Origin: Verrucomicrobiota bacterium
Lineage (GTDB): Bacteria; Verrucomicrobiota; Verrucomicrobiia; Limisphaerales; UBA8199
DNA length: 64,000 nt
Direction: 5' to 3'
NCBI GenBank assembly: GCA_012517205.1
Contig: JAAYVL010000153.1
Location: 24,667-88,666 of the forward strand
A program made the translations under genes and the position numbers. Numbering within the stretch: the first letter of the stretch is position 1; every line of letters begins with the position of its first letter. Below are positions 5,867 to 29,946 of this stretch, one piece after another. The notes beneath the pieces are model-generated. The model ran no database searches, had not been told where the DNA came from, and worked only from the letters and a program-made list of their open reading frames with translations.

Positions 5867-6125
5867 AATAGTATTGTATTGTCTTTGGATTCAGTAGGGG
5901 AAGGCGGAGGTCAATTCAACTCCTTTTTCCTTAACTGGCAGAAAACCGCGCACTGTCTGCCAGCCGCCAGGCATTCCGCGAGACCCTTTTTGCGACGCTG
6001 AGAGGGCCCCTGGAGCATCGGGCACTTCAGCTCCACAGCAGCCGATTCGGCAAGGAGGAGCACTTTCGCATTCGCTTGACGGAGATGGGCTTTCCATCAT
6101 ACGATAGATCTATATAAACAGTTAG

Positions 6126-6488
6126 AGCCCAATCCCGCGCCTCTCCATCCAGGCTCTGCGCCAGCGCAAAGCTCACCGCCTGCGCTCCCTCAAGCTGCCG
6201 CCCCGCCTCATTTACACCTCCCTGCTGGAACGGTTCCTGACCTGCGGGCGCCCCCACTGCTCCTGTCATCAAGGCCACAAACACGGTCCCTTCTTCTACC
6301 TCAACCGCTGCCTGTCCAAAGGTCGCATGAGCAGCCTGCTGCTCAAATCCGACGCTCAGATCACCCAAGCCCGCCAAGCGGTCCAGGCCTACCGCCAGGT
6401 GCTCGCAGCTCTCGACCAACTCTCTTGGATCAATCTGGAACTGCTGCGGCGCGATGAGCCCTTGTTCGGGAAACCAACCCCAGTATGA
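6126..6488 (+). pseudogene. DUF6788-like IS accessory ORF, 5' incomplete
   Basis: An open frame of 120 codons runs from a stop at 6123-6125 to the TGA at 6486-6488 with no convincing start codon. It reads '...LPPRLIYTSLLERFLTCGRP', then 'HCSCHQGHKHGPFFYLNRC', and ends in a helical 'ALDQLSWINLELLRRD' segment. The Cys/His-rich core followed by a helical tail resembles DUF6788-type proteins that accompany some transposases. Missing initiation suggests 5' truncation or decay. Its TGA overlaps the ATG of the transposase ORF (ATGA), suggesting the original element used translational coupling. This frame is absent from the supplied ORF track because it lacks a start. Confidence 0.6.
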
Positions 6489-7733
6489 GACTGCGTCAGT
6501 TCGCCGCCTATGTTCGCAAAGTCTTTCGCCTCCACCGGCTGGCCGGCCGCATCAGCGGCTCCCGTTGTGACCCCGACATCCCCCTCGGCCATCTGGTTAA
6601 GTTTGGACTTCGGTGCCGTGTTCACCCCCCCCCCCAGCTTTCTTCAACTCCAAAGCGAGCCGCGCCGGAAAGCCTGGCGCAACACGCTGGGCTACGCCAA
6701 GCCCATCCGCGATGATGCCCTGGCTTATGCCACCGCGCGGATGCGGTTGGAGCCGTTGCGGACCGCGCTGGCGACCACCAACAAAGTGCTCAAGCGCAAC
6801 AAGGCTTTCGTGCGCAATCAGATGAGCGGCCTGCTGGCTCTGAACATTGATGCCAATGAACATTTCAAGAGCCGGAGCCACTGCTGTCCGCAGTGCCTGC
6901 AACGCCAGCTCACGGTCAAGAATGCTCAGGGCCAGGAGGAAGAAGTTACCGAGTATTATCACAAAGAGGTTTATGCCCAACTCAGCGGACCGGCCTGGAA
7001 CACGCTGTTGGATGGCGAACCCCTGCGTCCGGGGAGGAGGGCGGGCGGTGGCGTTGCGCTTGTTGGGCCGGCGGCGGCGTCTCTATGGCGTGCGCTTCCT
7101 GGATGTGGTCGTGGCCGATGCCGGGTACGCCAAGGGGCCGTTCCTCAAAGCGGTGACCGCTTTGGGCTGGGCCCTCGTCGTGGTGCTCAAGCAAGGGGAT
7201 TACGACGTCTACCAGGAAGCCTGGGCCTTGACCCAAGGCCAACCCACCCACCAGTTCCGACAAGAGGAGCGCGAGGTCCGCCTTTGGGAAGTGCGCAGCC
7301 TGACCTTCTCCAAAACCTATGGCCGAGCCGTACGGGGGGTGCAGGCCGAGAAGAAATGGACCCAGTTCAAGGTCGTGGGCGGCAAAAAGATACCCGTTCC
7401 CAAACAGTCCGACTGGTTATGGGGGGTGACCGAGGACCTCGGCGGCTATGGTGGCCGGACCATTGGGAACCTGGGGCACGGTTGGTGGCGGATCGAGAAC
7501 TACGCCTTCAACGTCCTGGCCCAGCACTGGCACCTGCGGCACTGCGCCCATCATGATCCGACTTCGATCCTAGCCTGTTTGCTCATTACGCTGCTGCCCT
7601 CAACCTGTTTCATGCCTTTGTTCTGCTCTAGGGCAAACTCTATCGGCAGGGCAAGATCACCCTGCAAGAACTGCGCCTGCAACTCTACCGGGCCGTTGAA
7701 CACGGCTCGCTCCTGCTCCTGTTCAGCGGGTGA
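6485..7733 (+). pseudogene. DDE transposase (IS4-superfamily-like), multiply frameshifted
   Basis: The protein can be followed through three frames. It starts at the ATG at 6485 ('MRLRQFAAYVRKVF...') and shifts at an 11-C run (6625-6635) into 'SFLQLQSEPRRKAW...LATTNKVLKRNKAF...CCPQCL'. It shifts again near 7030-7050 into 'RFLDVVVADAGYAKGPFLKA', 'VVVLKQGDYDVYQEAW' and 'WGVTEDLGGYGG'. After a further shift and an in-frame TAG near 7628 the tail continues as 'LYRQGKITLQELRLQLYRAV' to the TGA at 7731. A Cys-x2-Cys pair and an acidic 'VVADAGY' strand fit a DDE transposase that I recognise from Verrucomicrobial genomes without being able to name its IS family. Several independent lesions make it inactive. 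Confidence 0.75.
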
Positions 7734-8023
7734 GCGCAAGGATAGGCTTTCGGCCGTCTGTTCTTTGATACTTCAAAACTGGCCGGCGGACCTTCACACA
7801 AGAAGTGTGTACTGGTGGAACGGGCGCGGCCCCCTCGACCGACTCGAAGGAACCTCTCGCCCCAGTTTTCCCAGCGCGAGTGCCGCCCCAATCATGGTGG
7901 AGACCAGCATACGGAATTTCTGCCGGGGCGGATGCGGGGTTGCCGTGCGCGGCGGTTTGCAGTATGCTCGGCCGCACGATGGCTTACATGGACAGGCCGG
8001 TCTGGCGGCGGAACTAAAGGTGC

Positions 8024-8854
8024 ATGGCGCGGCAAAGACATAACGTGCTACCTGGCTTCAGCCTGACGATGGGCTTTACGCTTTTCTACCTGGGCGCAAT
8101 TGTTCTGATTCCTTTTGCCGCCTTGGTTTTGCGCGCGCTGGAGCTGTCGTGGCTGGATTTCTGGCGTTTGGCGACGACGGAACGGGCGCTGGCGGCGTAT
8201 CGGCTGACGTTCGGGGCATCGCTGATTGCCGCGGCGGCCAACGGGGTGTTTGGCACGCTGCTGGCCTGGGTGCTTGTGCGCTATCATTTCCCCGGCCGCC
8301 GCAGTCTGGATGCGCTCATTGATTTCCCGTTTGCGCTGCCCACCGCGGTGGCAGGATTGACGCTGGCCAGCCTGTTTGCCCCCGACGGCTGGCTGGGGCG
8401 TTACCTGGTGCCGCTGGGAATCAAAGGTGCGTTTACGCCGCTGGGGGTGGTAATTGCGCTGACGTTTGTGGGGCTGCCTTTTGTGGTGCGGACGCTCCAA
8501 CCGGTGTTGCAGAACCTGGAGCGGGAGGTCGAGGAGGCGGCGGCCACGCTGGGCGCGGGCCGGTTGCGCACGTTCGCGCAGATCATAGCCCCAACGCTGC
8601 TGCCGGCGGTGCTGACCGGGCTGGCGCTAGCGTTTGCCCGGGCCGTCGGGGAATACGGGTCCATTGTATTTATTTCGGGCAACCTTCCCTTCAAGACGGA
8701 GATTGCGCCGTACTTGATCGTGCAGCGCCTGGAAGAATATGACTACACGGGAGCGATTGCGCTGGCGGTGGTGCTGCTGGTCTTTTCGTTTCTGCTGCTC
8801 GGGGCCATCAATTTGCTGGAACAGTGGTCCCGCCATGCGCGCCGCCCCGCTTGA
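8024..8854 (+). CDS. cysT: Sulfate ABC transporter permease CysT
   Basis: CysT is an inner-membrane permease subunit of the sulfate/thiosulfate importer. The 276-residue protein has about six hydrophobic segments and the permease EAA-loop region 'EVEEAAATLGAGRLRTFAQIIAPTLLPA', which docks on the ATPase. Typical CysT sequence such as 'RAVGEYGSIVFISGN' is present. The start at 8024 gives a short cytoplasmic N terminus, normal for the family. It is first in cysT-cysW-cysA; the periplasmic binding protein gene (cysP/sbp) that usually precedes it is absent, and a dead IS lies upstream instead. A molybdate permease is a weaker alternative, because two separate permeases plus a CysA-type ATPase point to sulfate. 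Confidence 0.92.
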   Translation: MARQRHNVLPGFSLTMGFTLFYLGAIVLIPFAALVLRALELSWLDFWRLATTERALAAYRLTFGASLIAAAANGVFGTLLAWVLVRYHFPGRRSLDALIDFPFALPTAVAGLTLASLFAPDGWLGRYLVPLGIKGAFTPLGVVIALTFVGLPFVVRTLQPVLQNLEREVEEAAATLGAGRLRTFAQIIAPTLLPAVLTGLALAFARAVGEYGSIVFISGNLPFKTEIAPYLIVQRLEEYDYTGAIALAVVLLVFSFLLLGAINLLEQWSRHARRPA

Positions 8855-23796: not shown

Positions 23797-24960
23797 GTAA
23801 TACCACTTCTCTATAATAATCAGAACAATATGCTTGCGATTTGGAAGGGGATGTGAGACGCATCGGCATGGCCCGAGCCCGACTCAAACTGACCGTCCTT
23901 CCGGCCCAGAAAGCCGAGTTGGAACAACGATTCAAGGCGGCGAACAACGTTCGCCAGCGTCAACGACTCCAAGCGATCCTGTTGGCCACCACGGGGCGGC
24001 ACGGCTACCGAGACATCGCCCAGATAGTGGGCTGTGCCCCGAGCACCTTCGCCCTGTGGCTCAACAAGTATCTGGCCGGCGGGGTGGAGGAATTGCTGCG
24101 CCGGGACACGCCCCCCGGTTCGAGCAGTCCGATCGGGGCCCCCGCCGTGCAGGAAGCGTTGGTGGCAGGCTTGAAATCCGGGCGTTGGCGCACGGCGGGA
24201 CAGGTCGCCGCTTGGCTGCAGGAGGAACACGGGATCAAGCGGGCGGCCAAATCCCTGTATCGGTGGTTGGGAAAAGCCGGAGGCGCGCTGCGGGTTCCGC
24301 GCCCTGCCCACGTGTTGCAGAACCCGTTGGCCCGCGCCGCCTTCCGCGCCGAGTTGGAGGAACGGCTTAAACGGCTGGCCTTGCCCAAAGATCGACCGGT
24401 GAAGATCTGGGTGGCCGATGAAAGCCGGTTTGGTCTGCATACGCACCGTCGGCGTTGTTGGACGCTGCGCGGGCAGCGGGTGGTGATTGCGCAACAGCAG
24501 CGCTATGAGTGGGAATATGTATATGGGGCCCTGGAAGGGTTGACGGGGCAGGCTCAGTTCCGGTTTATGCCTTCGGTCGGTCTGGACTTCAGCCGGGATT
24601 TTCTGGGGCAAATTGCCGCCCGCGATCCGTTTGCCGAGCCTGTGGTAATTGGGGATCAGGCCGGTTTTCACCCGCGCGCGGAGGATAAGCATCTGCCCCA
24701 ACGGGTTCATCTGCTTCCCTTGCCCCCCCTACAGCCCAGAACTCAATCCTATCGAGGGGCTATGGGACCAAGTGCAGGACATCACGTGCAATCAACGTCA
24801 CACCAGCTTGGACACTTTGGAGGAATCGCTGACCCGGGCGCTGCGCCCATTCTGGGAAACGCCGGCCAAAGTCTTATCCCTCATTCACCACTGGCTTCAC
24901 GCTAAAGCAAACGCTACGCTTTGACCCACTGTTCCGATTCACGGTGAGAAATGGTATGAC
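23797..24960 (+). mobile_element. IS630-family insertion sequence
   Basis: The element is bounded by imperfect ~33-bp terminal inverted repeats. The left end GTAATACCACTTCTC (from 23797) matches the reverse complement of the right end (GTCATACCATTTCTC, ending at 24960) at 13 of 15 bases. A second block AATCAGAACA / AATCGGAACA lies farther in. It contains one transposase reading frame with an internal frameshift. No TA target duplication is visible, and the right end abuts a truncated second IS630 transposase, suggesting an adjacent deletion. Confidence 0.75.
23868..24924 (+). pseudogene. IS630 family transposase with +1 frame change at a C7 run
   Basis: This is a DDE transposase of the IS630/Tc1 group. 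The N-terminal helix-turn-helix region 'HGYRDIAQIVGCAPSTFALWLN' binds the ends. Catalytic acids are seen in 'IWVADESRFGLHTH', 'VVIGDQAGFH' and 'PYSPELNPIEGLWD'. The first two lie in the 23868 frame (to 24905); the third lies in the overlapping frame 24649-24924. The switch maps to CCCCCCC at 24723-24729, where one C fewer would restore a single ~352-codon frame. It may be a decay mutation or slippage-dependent expression; I list it as a pseudogene because the first is simpler. 'MARARLKLTV' at 23868 is the start. Confidence 0.8.
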
Positions 24961-24966
24961 ATATAA

Positions 24967-25581
24967 AAAAAGACACTCCGCGCCAGCGAACAGGATCGGT
25001 CGGACATAGCGCAGGTCCGCCGAGAATGGAAACGTCGCCAGGCCGGGTTGGATCCGGCAAAACTGATCTTCCTGGATGAATCCGGAGCCAAGACCAACAT
25101 GACGCGCCTGCGCGGCAGGGCATTGCGAGGGCAACGCGTGCATGCCAAGAGTCCGCATGGTCATTGGCGAACCACCACGATGTTATGCGCCATACGGATG
25201 GACGGTTCCACCGCCTGCATGGCCGTGGACGGGCCGACCGATACGGAGGTGTTTCGAGCTTATGTGGAGGGCGTATTGTGTCCCACCGTTAAAGAAGGAG
25301 ACATGGTGGTGATGGACAATCTCTCCCCTCACAAAAGCGAAGCAACCCGCTCGGTGCTTAAGGCTGCGGGTGCCCAAGTGATGTTTCTGCCTGCCTATTC
25401 GCCGGACCTCAATCCGATCGAGAACATGTGGAGCAAGGTTAAAAACCACCCCCGTGGCCAAGAGGCACGCAGCGACTCGGAACGGATCGGGGCAATAGCC
25501 TCAGCTTTGAAGACTATCACACGTCAGGATGCAACAAACTGGTTTGCCCATTGCGGTTACAGTTTTATTAATTTGCTCTAG
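24967..25581 (+). pseudogene. IS630 family transposase, N-terminally truncated
   Basis: An open frame from just after a TAA at 24964-24966 reads 'KKTLRASEQDRSDIAQVRRE', then 'LIFLDESGAKTNMTR', 'MVVMDNLSPHKS' and 'LPAYSPDLNPIENMWSKVK', the three DDE blocks of an IS630 transposase. The N-terminal helix-turn-helix half is missing, and the fragment begins within a few bases of the right end of the neighbouring IS630. The track's start at 25048 is a TTG inside the DDE domain. A separately translated second ORF is possible, since some IS630 elements use two ORFs, but no first ORF remains here. It differs clearly in sequence from the transposase at 23868. Confidence 0.8.
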
Positions 25582-25602: not shown

Positions 25603-26616
25603 CTACGGGCGATGGGAATGCGCGTAGGCGCAAAGGGCGCGGAGATTTTCGTGGGGAGTATCACGGGGAACTTCACAACCGGCACCGACGATGAATCGCG
25701 GCCCGGCCTGGCGGTGGCATTCCGCTATGGCCCGGGTGACGTCGTCCGGATTCCCATTGCGCAGAATGGTGACCGGGTTCAGGTTGCCAAGCAGGACGGG
25801 ATCCGGCCCCATCTTTTGCCGCGCCTCGGTGAGCGGGGCTAGGGAGTCCAGGTCAATAATATCACAACCGAGCCGGCTCATGCCCTCCAGTATCTGGCGG
25901 GTATTGCCACAGATATGCAGGCGGACCCGGCCGCCAAGGGCGTGGATGCCGTCCACAAGCTGCTTTTCGTAAGGCCAGACAAACTCGTTGTAAATCCCCG
26001 GGCCGACGAGCGACGCGGCGGCATCGCCAACGCCGATGATGTCCGCCCCGGCCTTGATCTGCTCGCGCGCAAACCGCAGCTCCATTTCAATAACGAAAGC
26101 GAAGAGGTCGCGCACAAAAGCCGGGTCATCGTAGAAGTCCATCATCAGGGTGTTAATGCCGCGCAGGTCGGCGGCTTCGGCGATGGGCCCCTCGACCCAG
26201 CCCTCAATGATCATTTCCTTCCCGACGCGCTGCTGGTACAACTCCAGCGCCTTGAGGGCGTTGTGCATACGGCCGCCGCCGCGCGGGTCCGGAACTTTCA
26301 GGGAGAGCAGCCGGGCCTTATCCGCCAGCAGGGACTGGCCTTCCACGAGCGCGACGGGCTGATGATCGAAATACTCCACCGCCGCGCCGCAATCCGCCGC
26401 CTCGCGTGCGGGATCGGACATGGTGTTGACGTAGTCGAAGCCGAAGGCCTCCGCGGTGCGAATTTGCCCCTCGACCAGCACCCGGTAGTCGGTGCAGTAA
26501 TCACGGTAGCGCGCGCCGATCAGCGAGCCGGCGAACATCATGGTGATGGGCATGAGCGGCAGCCGGTCAACCGGCTGGCCGGCCAAGTGCGCCAGAACTC
26601 GCTCCCGGCGGGTCAT
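25603..26616 (-). CDS. Uroporphyrinogen decarboxylase-fold (MtaA/CmuA-like) methyltransferase
   Basis: This 337-residue protein has the URO-D fold used by methylcobamide:CoM methyltransferases (MtaA, CmuA C-terminal) that move methyl groups from corrinoid proteins to thiols. Seen are 'RERVLAHLAGQPVDRLP', 'GWVEGPIAEAADLRG', 'IIGVGDAAASLVGPGIYNEF' and 'RVRLHICGNTRQIL'; the H-x-C pair in 'HICGN' matches the zinc ligands of MtaA-type enzymes. Haem-pathway HemE lacks this HxC and lies in other contexts. It follows the homocysteine methyltransferase by 6 nt and a corrinoid protein further upstream, so a corrinoid methyl-transfer role is likely. The acceptor and donor are unknown. Confidence 0.82.
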   Translation of the reverse strand: MTRRERVLAHLAGQPVDRLPLMPITMMFAGSLIGARYRDYCTDYRVLVEGQIRTAEAFGFDYVNTMSDPAREAADCGAAVEYFDHQPVALVEGQSLLADKARLLSLKVPDPRGGGRMHNALKALELYQQRVGKEMIIEGWVEGPIAEAADLRGINTLMMDFYDDPAFVRDLFAFVIEMELRFAREQIKAGADIIGVGDAAASLVGPGIYNEFVWPYEKQLVDGIHALGGRVRLHICGNTRQILEGMSRLGCDIIDLDSLAPLTEARQKMGPDPVLLGNLNPVTILRNGNPDDVTRAIAECHRQAGPRFIVGAGCEVPRDTPHENLRALCAYAHSHRP

Positions 26617-26622
26617 CGGCGG

Positions 26623-27498
26623 TCAGCGATGGCGCAGGGCGCGCCCGGCGGCGACAATAAACTCGGGCCGCGTGCCGCAGCACCCCCCGACCAGGTTGGC
26701 ACCCGCCTGAACCAAGGCCGGAATAGAACCGGCAAACTCCTCGGGAGTCGTAGTGTAGCGGGGTTGCCCGGCCACCATAATCGGCAGCCCGGCATTGGGC
26801 TTCATCCAAATGGGCCGGTCAGTGACCGCGCGCATTCGCCGGCAGATCCCGATGAATCCGGCGGCCCCCTGACCGCAGTTGGCGCCGACGACATCCGCGC
26901 CCGCCGTGATCAGCGCCTGGACGGCTTGCTCGGGCGTATTTCCCATCATGGTGCGATCCTTTTCTTTGCCGCTGTCGAAGACCATGCTGGCCACGACCGG
27001 CAGGCCCGTCTCGCGCGCGGCGCCGATGGCCACCGTGGCCTCCGCCAGGTCGGACATCGTTTCGACAACCAGCGCGTCGGCCCCGGCGCCGGCCAGGGCG
27101 CGGGCCTGCTCGCGGAAGGCCGCCCACAGCTCGGCTTCGGTGACATCGCCGTTCATGAGCAGTTTGCCGGTCGGGCCGATCGAGGCGAACACGCGGGCGC
27201 GGCCAGCGGCGGCCTGGCGCGAAATCTCCACGCCGCGCGCGTTGATCTCGCCGGCTTGATCTCCGGCAGCCGCTTCGGCAAGGCGGATGCGGTTGGCGCC
27301 GAAGGTATTGGTGAGAATCACCCGGCTGCCGGCGGCCACATACGCCGCGGCAACTTCGCCGACGCGCTCCGGGTGGGTGAGGTTCCAAAGGTCCGGCGTC
27401 TCCCCCGCGCCCAGGCCCCGCGCCTGAAGTTCGGTGCCCCATGCGCCGTCGGTTATGACCGGCCCCTGGGAAAGGAGTTCCTCAAGAAGCGGATGCAT
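26623..27498 (-). CDS. Homocysteine S-methyltransferase family protein
   Basis: This is a zinc-dependent methyltransferase domain of 291 residues, equivalent to the homocysteine-binding module of MetH or to betaine/SMM-homocysteine methyltransferases. It begins 'MHPLLEELLSQGPVITDGAW' (start 27498; the longer track ORF reads through the neighbour). It contains 'LTNTFGANRIRL', the first zinc Cys in 'GANCGQGAAG' and the Cys pair in 'GGCCGTRPEFI'. It lies between a stand-alone corrinoid protein (28-nt gap) and an MtaA-like protein (6-nt gap), suggesting a split corrinoid-dependent methionine-forming or demethylating system. There is no folate-binding or reactivation domain in the window. Confidence 0.87.
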   Translation of the reverse strand: MHPLLEELLSQGPVITDGAWGTELQARGLGAGETPDLWNLTHPERVGEVAAAYVAAGSRVILTNTFGANRIRLAEAAAGDQAGEINARGVEISRQAAAGRARVFASIGPTGKLLMNGDVTEAELWAAFREQARALAGAGADALVVETMSDLAEATVAIGAARETGLPVVASMVFDSGKEKDRTMMGNTPEQAVQALITAGADVVGANCGQGAAGFIGICRRMRAVTDRPIWMKPNAGLPIMVAGQPRYTTTPEEFAGSIPALVQAGANLVGGCCGTRPEFIVAAGRALRHR

Positions 27499-27526
27499 GG
27501 CCGGCGGAGAAACCCGTGCCGCGGGA

Positions 27527-28165
27527 TCAGGCCACTCCCACGGCCTTCTTGGCCAGGGCCACGGCGCCCACCGCGTTCTCGCTGTAGCCATCCGCGCCGA
27601 TTTCGTCGGCGTATTTCTGGGTAATGGGCGCGCCGCCGATGAGAACCTTGACCTTGCCGCGCACGCCCGCCTGGGTGAGCGCGTCAATCGTGGTCTTCAT
27701 GGCGGGCATGGTCGTGGTCAGCAGGGCGGACATGGCCACAATGTCGGCCTGCTTGGCATTGACCGCTTCAATAAACTTCTCCGGGGAAACATTGACGCCC
27801 AGGTCGAGAACCTCAAAACCGCCGCCCTCGAGCAGGGAAGCGACCAGGTTCTTGCCGATATCGTGCAAATCGCCTTTGACGGTGCCGATGGCGACGCGCC
27901 CAACCGGCTTGTCGCCGCGCGCGATCAGGAGCGGCCGGATGAGCTCGAGGGCGCCCTTCATGGCGCGCGCGGAGATGAGCAACTCGGGCACGAAATACTC
28001 GTTCGCCTCGAAACGGCGTCCCACCTCGTCCATGGCGGGCACCATGTGTTCGTTGACCAGCTTCAGCGGGTCAATCCCGGCGGCCAGGGCTTCTTTGGTG
28101 ATTAGTTGGGCGGTCTTGGCGTCGCCGCTTACCACGGCATCGTAGAGTTGTTTTAGATCCGGCAT
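27527..28165 (-). CDS. Corrinoid (cobalamin-binding) methyl-carrier protein, MtbC/MtaC-like
   Basis: This is a 212-residue stand-alone cobalamin protein with a helical cap (residues ~1-85, including 'FVPELLISARAMKGALEL') and a Rossmann B12 domain. The lower-ligand motif D-x-H-x2-G is present as 'KGDLHDIGKNLV' (D99, H101, G104). It is followed by 'VSALLTTTMPAMKTTI'-type and 'VLIGGAPITQKYADEIGADG' segments, both hallmarks of the family. The start 'MPDLKQLYDAV' at 28165 matches homologues. In the operon it can pass methyl groups to the adjacent homocysteine methyltransferase or MtaA-like protein. The primary methyl donor enzyme is not identified here. Confidence 0.92.
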   Translation of the reverse strand: MPDLKQLYDAVVSGDAKTAQLITKEALAAGIDPLKLVNEHMVPAMDEVGRRFEANEYFVPELLISARAMKGALELIRPLLIARGDKPVGRVAIGTVKGDLHDIGKNLVASLLEGGGFEVLDLGVNVSPEKFIEAVNAKQADIVAMSALLTTTMPAMKTTIDALTQAGVRGKVKVLIGGAPITQKYADEIGADGYSENAVGAVALAKKAVGVA

Positions 28166-28231: not shown

Positions 28232-28897
28232 TCAACGCCGAATTGCAGATTTTGGCGTCCGCCCCGCACGCCTGGCGCAAGTGGCAAAGGCGGCCGGCGC
28301 TCTTCGCCCGCCGGGCTGGGTTATCCGGACCGGCAGGGCCTCCGGGCCGGGCGCAGCGTCCAGGGGCAATTCCGTCAGCAACTGCCACACCGGCTTCGCC
28401 TGGCCGGGAAGCACCAGGTCCGGCGCAATTTCGCTCAACGGCTGGAGCACAAAGCGGCGCAGGTGGGCGCGCGGATGGGGTAGCGTCAGCCGCTGGCTGG
28501 CGCGGGTTTCGCGGCCAAACGCAATCAAATCCAGGTCGAGCGGGCGCGGTTCGTTCATCACTTTCTTTGGCCTTCGGCCAAAGGCGCGCTCCAGCGCGCG
28601 CAGGCGCGTCAGCAACGCTTCCGGGGTTGCCCCCCGCCGCGGCGCAAAAGCCACGACCGCGTTCACGAACGCCGGCGAGCCCGGAGGACAATCTACCGGT
28701 TCCGTTTGCCACAAGGAGGACTTGCGCAAGGGATGCCGGGAGAATTGCCGCAAGCAGGCCATCGCCCGCAGCACATTCTGCCGCGAATTCCCCAGGTTTG
28801 AGCCCAGGGCCACGATGGCCCACTCCCCGAGGTCCGCTGTTTCTTTCCGCGCGGCCGGACGGCGGGGGCGGGCGGGGCTTTGTCTTTTCGCCTTCAT
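28232..28897 (-). CDS. folK: 2-amino-4-hydroxy-6-hydroxymethyldihydropteridine diphosphokinase
   Basis: FolK transfers pyrophosphate from ATP to hydroxymethyl-dihydropterin in folate synthesis. Family motifs are 'IVALGSNLGNSRQNVLRAM' at the pterin site, 'FVNAVVAF', the ATP/Mg loop 'NEPRPLDLDLIAFG' and 'LTLPHPRAHLRRFVLQPL'. The 221-residue length includes a ~25-residue basic N-terminal extension and an Arg/Ala-rich C-terminal tail not typical of the ~160-residue family. The ATG overlaps the dapB stop (ATGA at 28894-28897), so the two are translationally coupled. Folate supply fits the one-carbon character of the downstream corrinoid genes. Confidence 0.92.
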   Translation of the reverse strand: MKAKRQSPARPRRPAARKETADLGEWAIVALGSNLGNSRQNVLRAMACLRQFSRHPLRKSSLWQTEPVDCPPGSPAFVNAVVAFAPRRGATPEALLTRLRALERAFGRRPKKVMNEPRPLDLDLIAFGRETRASQRLTLPHPRAHLRRFVLQPLSEIAPDLVLPGQAKPVWQLLTELPLDAAPGPEALPVRITQPGGRRAPAAFATCARRAGRTPKSAIRR

Positions 28898-29628
28898 TTA
28901 AGCCCCAGCACGTGCTGCATATCGTAGAGCCCGGGCGGTTGCTTCACCGCCCACACCGCCGCCCGCAGCGCGCCCTCGGCAAACGTCTCCCGCGTGGAAG
29001 CCTTATGGGTCAGTTCAACGCGCTCGCCCGCGCCGGCAAAAATGACCGTATGGTCCCCCACCACGTCGCCGCCGCGCACGGAGTGCAGGCCGATCTCCTC
29101 CGCCGGACGCTCGCCCACGATGCCGGCGCGTCCATGCCGCAGGACCTGACCAAGCTGCTGCTGGCGGACCTCCGCCAGAATCTCCGCCAGCGTCCGCGCC
29201 GTCCCGCTGGGCGCATCGCGCTTCAGGCGGTGGTGCATTTCAACAATCTCCAAATCAAAGCCCGCTCCCAGTATCTCCGCCGCCTTGCGCGTCAGCCAGA
29301 ACAGGGTGTTGATGCCCGTGGAAAAGTTCGAGGACAGCACCACGGGGATTCGCGCCTGGCAACCGGTGATCTGCGATTTCTCCAGATCCGAATGGCCGGT
29401 AGTGCCGACGACCAGCGCCTTCCGATGCGCGGCACACAGGGCCGCAATGCCTGGGGAGGCACTGTGCAGGCTAAAATCAATGACCACCTCCCCCCGGTCC
29501 AACACCGAACGCAGGTCGTCGCCCTGGTCAATCAGGCCGACAATTTGCAAATCCGAATGATGCGCGGCGCAGGCGGCCAGCGCCTGGCCCATGCGGCCTT
29601 TCGAGCCCGTGATGATGATCTTCGTCAT
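28894..29628 (-). CDS. dapB: 4-hydroxy-tetrahydrodipicolinate reductase
   Basis: DapB reduces hydroxytetrahydrodipicolinate with NAD(P)H in lysine/diaminopimelate synthesis. The 244-residue protein from 'MTKIIITGSKGRMGQALA' shows the Rossmann glycine motif, 'VVGTTGHSD', 'SSNFSTGINTLFWLT' and the catalytic 'EMHHRLKRDAPSGTA' segment with its HH and K. The longer track start reads upstream junk, so 29628 is used. It heads the dapB-folK-corrinoid-methyltransferase operon. Composite repeat copy 2 lies upstream, between it and the divergent transporter. dapA and dapF are about 3 kb away. Confidence 0.95.
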   Translation of the reverse strand: MTKIIITGSKGRMGQALAACAAHHSDLQIVGLIDQGDDLRSVLDRGEVVIDFSLHSASPGIAALCAAHRKALVVGTTGHSDLEKSQITGCQARIPVVLSSNFSTGINTLFWLTRKAAEILGAGFDLEIVEMHHRLKRDAPSGTARTLAEILAEVRQQQLGQVLRHGRAGIVGERPAEEIGLHSVRGGDVVGDHTVIFAGAGERVELTHKASTRETFAEGALRAAVWAVKQPPGLYDMQHVLGLK

Positions 29629-29946
29629 ACGTGGCGCGCCGCGCGGGGCGCGTCCGCCCACGGACCACGCGGCGCACGGCGCTTTGCCGTCCCAATACGC
29701 CCGTCGCCGGGGGAAAAGTCAAACGGATAAGCAATAGCCCTTTACGCCCCCAAGCGCCCCGGATACGGCAAGGATGGTGGGAAATTGGCCTGGAGGCTCG
29801 TCCGGCAGGTGCCGCGATAGCCAGAACCCGCCCAGGCGCAGGCTCGCATTTTTGCGGCGGCAGAAATCCCCCGATGTTTTGCTCAATAGCCCATGTTCGG
29901 AACCGGAATAATGCCAGACGCCGCAACTCACCACCCGTCGCAGAAC

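Follow-up and report, generated by a model that had tools for sequence, protein, structure and literature searches.

Three genes packed together on the minus strand, encoding a stand-alone corrinoid protein (Cor), a homocysteine methyltransferase (Hcy) and an MtaA-like protein of the URO-D family, raise the question of what loads the carrier with a methyl group, how its cobalt is kept active, and what such a unit contributes to methionine formation. A first-pass annotation of the window (the whole stretch of DNA analysed, 64,000 nucleotides) saw neither a donor enzyme nor a reactivase and proposed a split methionine synthase variant or a demethylation pathway. We hold with moderate confidence that these genes are the portion still clustered of a corrinoid methyltransferase system with five components, in which the URO-D protein would act on the donor side and the remaining components, an activase (RACo) and a DUF1638 protein, are encoded elsewhere in the genome on contigs C94 and C150, respectively.

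The triad and its proteins

25603..26616, minus strand: MtaA-like URO-D-fold methyltransferase (337 aa, PF01208, predicted zinc site H234-C236-C314)
26623..27498, minus strand: Hcy, MetH-type homocysteine S-methyltransferase module (291 aa from ATG, PF02574)
27527..28165, minus strand: Cor, stand-alone corrinoid (B12) carrier, MtgC/MtbC-like (212 aa, PF02607 + PF02310)
28232..28897, minus strand: folK, probably outside the system (PF01288/TIGR01498; 66 nt upstream of Cor)
28894..29661, minus strand: dapB, a neighbour only (PF01113 + PF05173; 4-nt overlap with folK)

The triad is as tightly packed as first described, with intergenic gaps of 28 nt (Cor-Hcy) and 6 nt (Hcy-URO-D) against the 66 nt that separate Cor from folK. 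The Cor–Hcy–URO-D order recurs in genomes of the same family, and colinear triads of relatives show 62-90% protein identity; judged from the sequences, this recurrence makes the conservation of the triad greater than chance would give. The adjacency to folK and dapB is kept in none of the relatives that have the triad, and co-transcription with folK as a hint of a folate connection was dropped for that reason. No cobalamin or SAM riboswitch that might serve as a regulatory clue was found near the triad or in the related loci; an nhaA-I riboswitch (Rfam RF03057) in relative G006 (L054 3941-3992) has no relation to the module. Immediately downstream of the URO-D gene lie two IS630-type (DDE_3) transposase genes or remnants (window positions 23841-24905 and 25048-25581, both plus strand), which need not explain the scattering of the RACo and DUF1638 genes because relatives show this scattering too.

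The catalytic motifs of all three proteins are intact. Cor carries a DLHDIG motif, with the D, H and G of DxHxxG present in 32/32 homologues; among curated families it comes nearest to MtgC (206 bits), then pyl_corrinoid (198 bits), scoring under cut-off for each, and its closest solved chain is 1y80 (E 9e-64). Hcy (PF02574, 229 bits) has zinc-site cysteines C208, C273 and C274 that are found in 34/34 homologues, and a role as a direct BHMT was dropped because the match to the MetH type is far stronger (161 bits to T. maritima MetH vs 59 bits to BHMT).

The URO-D protein (PF01208, 210 bits) has TIGR01463 (MtaA/CmuA) as its best NCBIfam match, at 158 bits against a cut-off of 235, and scores under the cut-offs of both curated families, MtaA and MtbA (109 against 400 and 130 against 600 bits). 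The HxC motif noted at first sight is present as H234 and C236, and a third ligand, C314, completes a set that lines up with HxC...C in the coenzyme M methyltransferase 4ay7 and is invariant among homologues (His 101/101, Cys 101/101, Cys 99/99). The AlphaFold model (pLDDT 94) finds MtaA (4ay8/4ay7) as its top fold match, with a TM score of 0.85; model and alignment together indicate a URO-D fold with His-Cys-Cys ligands of the MtaA kind, which are predicted to hold a metal. The protein was rejected as a true uroporphyrinogen decarboxylase, scoring far under the hemE cut-off, and HemE is encoded in this genome by a different gene (L005, 376 bits). A tree built with MtaA, CmuA, plasmid-borne relatives and paralogues places the family in a single clade of its own with 100/100 support and a long stem; its nearest outgroup is not settled because several reference branches are long.

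Partners and candidate donors in the rest of the genome

The genome (3.6 Mb in 181 contigs, about 93% complete) encodes one RACo/RamA-type activase with a 2Fe-2S domain and one DUF1638 protein, on the two contigs named above; the reported absence of a reactivase thus stands for the locus but not for the genome. This RACo shares 60-67% identity with most RACos that are encoded in operons. Proteins with the PF02607 corrinoid domain number only two in the genome, MetH and the triad Cor, and Cor, as the sole stand-alone corrinoid protein found, is the only stand-alone candidate client of the reactivase.

One complete MetH, a 1282-codon frame with all four modules and its own activation domain, is present together with MetF, so the triad is not the only methionine synthase of the cell and is no replacement for MetH. 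The suggestion of a split methionine synthase variant therefore agrees with the module content (Cor, Hcy, a RamA-like activase and DUF1638, as in Phaeobacter/Ruegeria) but not with this complete MetH and MetF, nor with the PF00809 proteins of the genome: besides FolP and MetH there is just a divergent DHPS, and no stand-alone pterin methyltransferase was found. The last of these, a second, divergent dihydropteroate-synthase-like protein in addition to the normal FolP (C12:3022-3561; L152 1273-2232, minus strand), reaches 125.8 bits to TIGR01496, below the cut-off of 162.6; considered as a hidden pterin donor, it was dropped because it scores as divergent DHPS.

A search across the genome for an MttB-family donor (PF06253) gave no match, which removed an MttB-type enzyme from consideration as the missing partner, and MtaB (PF12176) is absent from the window and from the loci of this genome that were examined. 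The first impression that a donor enzyme is lacking thus holds locally, and for MttB genome-wide, but the URO-D protein itself and the other URO-D paralogues are donor candidates. Nine or ten URO-D-family matches occur in the genome, HemE among them, and seven further URO-D-fold genes carry the ligand sets H-C-C (one gene), H-C-H (two genes) and H-C-N, H-D-G, Y-E-A and D-D-H (one gene each).

The five-gene module in relatives

Orthologues of the URO-D protein (59-85% identity) were found in 23/58 genomes, counting the window's own genome and one in which the gene is split over two contigs. Of these, 21 are shared with the 24 genomes that have RACo (Fisher p 1.3e-10), and DUF1638 occurs in 19 of the 23 and in none outside them (Fisher p 9e-12, 58 genomes). 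When 45 genomes outside the family of the window were taken, one per family, the associations persisted (p 5e-6 for RACo and 2e-8 for DUF1638), with shared descent partly remaining in these values. A long MetH frame is present in every URO-D-positive relative, so the module adds to MetH and is no substitute for it.

A scan of GTDB genomes identified 339 stretches encoding URO-D relatives, and the best 80 loci of the 339 were analysed; these belong to Verrucomicrobiota, Planctomycetota, Acidobacteriota, Armatimonadota, Hydrogenedentota and Omnitrophota. An Hcy gene lies no more than 5 kb from URO-D in 22 of these best 80 loci, Cor in 21, DUF1638 in 19 and RACo in 13, and linkage among the families extends over four phyla. 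DUF1638 was recognised by sequence in the gap between the Hcy and URO-D genes and then confirmed as PF07796. The complete order Cor–Hcy–DUF1638–URO-D–RACo occurs at several loci (L088, L139, L148 and L149), and L096 has the five-gene cluster plus MtaB; Verrucomicrobiota, Acidobacteriota and Planctomycetota have the five families as one cluster, and Armatimonadota have close relatives of it. Within the taxonomic order of the window, the set is broken into varied pairs: Cor–RACo (L185), Hcy–RACo (L187), DUF1638–RACo (L165) and DUF1638–URO-D (L175). Many distant URO-D homologues have no partner linked within 5 kb, and, apart from the five families themselves and additional URO-D genes, the search for conserved flanking genes gave no hint of a substrate.

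Several neighbouring arrangements were also observed. Seven Opitutae loci (L083, L087, L090, L093, L100, L103 and L105) hold conserved series of URO-D-family genes, three to five in number, that surround the conserved URO-D gene, with Cor, Hcy and RACo absent within 5 kb; at L083 the site is H-D-N in the upstream URO-D-family gene and H-C-C in the downstream gene. In three genomes (G054, G005 and G021; loci L179, L181 and L192), a second, more distant Hcy (38-45% identity) lies beside a more distant RACo (27-36% identity), an arrangement that, by its sequences, suggests a related but separate module. On plasmid pTs417 of Ca. Thiodictyon syntrophicum (L231), genes for a corrinoid protein, a URO-D protein and RACo are directly followed by a sensor-domain diguanylate cyclase, a set that possibly serves methyl-compound sensing or signalling.

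Direction of methyl transfer and comparison with known systems

His-Cys-Cys URO-D enzymes have been assigned to S/Se-methyl chemistry and carboxylate-containing sites to oxygen chemistry (PMC10418091); from such precedents, taken with the gene evidence, the URO-D protein is proposed here as an S/Se-methyl demethylase. RACo, through its 2Fe-2S domain and with the help of DUF1638, would hold the cobalt of the carrier as Co(I); the His-Cys-Cys zinc of the URO-D protein would bind a methylated compound, probably an S-linked one, through its sulfur (or selenium), and the methyl group of that compound would pass to the carrier; and the three-Cys zinc site of Hcy would move this methyl from the carrier to homocysteine, yielding methionine without methyl-folate. 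The components would be expected to interact physically, and the system would recycle methyl groups alongside the normal MetH route. The earlier idea of corrinoid-based methyl transfer with homocysteine as its end point is thus supported, and the five-component reading is favoured by the five-gene clusters, the co-occurrence across genomes, the varied dispersed pairs, the identity of RACo to operonic RACos and the invariant zinc ligands. In a broader form, offered tentatively, this would be a folate-independent, corrinoid-dependent methionine route, so far undescribed and widespread across Verrucomicrobiota, Acidobacteriota, Planctomycetota and Armatimonadota, with a new clade of URO-D S-/Se-demethylases feeding a carrier-Hcy pair that RACo and DUF1638 reactivate, as methyl salvage beside MetH.

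The main doubt concerns direction. MtaA of methanogens is itself an acceptor-side enzyme, and the same five-part system could run with the conserved URO-D protein in that role, donors elsewhere (URO-D paralogues or MtaB) loading the carrier and the URO-D protein and Hcy serving as alternative exits, to a cellular thiol and to homocysteine. We consider this unlikely, yet serious. The zinc site is the same as that of MtaA, and the conserved URO-D gene is constant while other genes vary around it: extra URO-D genes occur in 16/80 loci (the best 80 of 339), and MtaB (PF12176, about 550 bits) is present at the related loci L084 and L096. L084 in particular, with a URO-D gene, a carrier and a true MtaB but no Hcy gene nearby, fits an acceptor role, and in the genome of the window the seven further URO-D-fold genes, with other or similar ligand sets, stand beside one stand-alone carrier. 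MtaB, the methyl-folate methyltransferase genes described below and the extra URO-D genes look like exchangeable donors and acceptors grouped about an unchanging core, which leaves room for the conserved URO-D protein to be a second enzyme on the acceptor side. Against this, the clusters at L139, L149, L112 and L123 hold no donor gene besides URO-D; we know of no thiol acceptor here, and coenzyme M is, to our knowledge, not expected in these bacteria. The donor-side reading has further points against it in the distant homologues that lack a linked partner within 5 kb and in the MetH with its activation domain, which accompanies URO-D in every relative, the need for a second route being unproven.

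A classical split methionine synthase, in which a pterin module would bring in the methyl group of methyl-folate, with an accessory part left for the URO-D protein, is improbable. It draws on the likeness of Cor, Hcy, the RamA-like activase and DUF1638 to the set of Phaeobacter, in which RamA-like and DUF1638 proteins are required together with split methionine synthase pieces (PMC5764234), and on a methyl-folate:corrinoid methyltransferase-like gene at L089 and L146 (a third, at L094, by similarity only). At L089 this gene lies beside the cluster with a DUF5981-MTHFR fusion (MetV-MetF like; 6053-8404), a possible direct link of the system to folate C1 metabolism in that species. The PF00809 inventory and the complete MetH of the window's genome stand against it, however, and the constant partner across loci is the URO-D gene, not a pterin gene. 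Distinctly improbable, too, is the reading of Hcy alone as a betaine/DMSP:homocysteine methyltransferase, with Cor and URO-D an unrelated pair alongside: Bmt of Phaeobacter, a stand-alone PF02574 protein, forms methionine from DMSP or betaine in vitro without cobalamin (PMC12366255), and Cor-URO-D occurs without an adjacent Hcy gene in G008, G012 and G005, but the Hcy of the window is much nearer the MetH module than BHMT and, in many loci of four phyla, has Cor, URO-D or RACo as a linked gene. An already described kind of gene cluster, type 1 mlp, acting in the salvage of methyl-selenium or methionine, is highly unlikely, for although MtaA-like protein(s), a corrinoid protein, a Ram/RACE protein and His-Cys-Cys sites are shared building blocks (PMC10418091), type 1 clusters need Mlp2 and Mlp3 where this one has a single URO-D gene, have been reported from obligate anaerobes only, chiefly Firmicutes, and have a core without Hcy or DUF1638, and the URO-D protein falls in a separate well-supported clade (in the tree without true Mlp2/Mlp3 references).

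URO-D-family proteins are numerous in these soil and freshwater phyla and mostly without an assigned function; connecting one tight clade of them with a carrier, homocysteine as acceptor, a reactivating enzyme and DUF1638 gives a so far anonymous annotation the form of a pathway that can be tested. For DUF1638 this is an independent second case, outside Alphaproteobacteria, of association with the reactivation of corrinoids, and the module suggests that uncultured bacteria of several phyla have a methyl-group sink or source, possibly for methyl-sulfur, that has gone unrecognised. A partial search of the literature found no published description of a cluster with these five families.

Among known systems, the module resembles MetH in its carrier and homocysteine modules (31-33% identity to their counterparts in the MetH of this organism) but differs from the four-module enzyme in being split, in having no folate or activation module and in its expected RACo-type reactivation. 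Like the chloromethane methyltransferase CmuA, the URO-D protein is a methyltransferase that would act with a corrinoid domain, whereas CmuA is fused to its own and is 23% identical, and no cmu genes were seen here. With MtaA/MtbA, the soluble coenzyme M methyltransferases of methanogens, it shares the fold, the zinc ligands and 26% identity, and it differs in its sub-threshold scores for MtaA, MtbA and TIGR01463, its separate clade and the lack of a coenzyme M context. Type 1 mlp clusters likewise combine a His-Cys-Cys MtaA-like protein, a corrinoid protein and a Ram/RACE activase with the absence of a folate methylase, but they have two or three Mlps in place of one conserved URO-D, belong to other phyla and lack the Hcy and DUF1638 found here (PMC10418091). 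The closest parallels are in Ruegeria, where a single carrier is used in demethylating betaine as well as in forming methionine, alongside an MttB donor and pterin and homocysteine modules (PMC12478193), and in Phaeobacter: MtgBCDE and the split synthase share with the present module a separate carrier, a PF02574 module, a RamA-like (DUF4445) activase, DUF1638 and a methyl group that can end on homocysteine. Unlike those systems, this one has a URO-D methyltransferase instead of an MttB donor or stand-alone pterin module, and unlike the Phaeobacter split synthase it coexists with a complete MetH, in a host of the Verrucomicrobiota. The system would function like MtgBCDE and the mlp systems yet fails their defining features (MttB, a pterin module, Mlp2 with Mlp3), with MetH present, and by analogy it is best read as a modular corrinoid methyltransferase like Ruegeria MtgBCDE in which a URO-D protein would replace the MttB donor and pterin modules.
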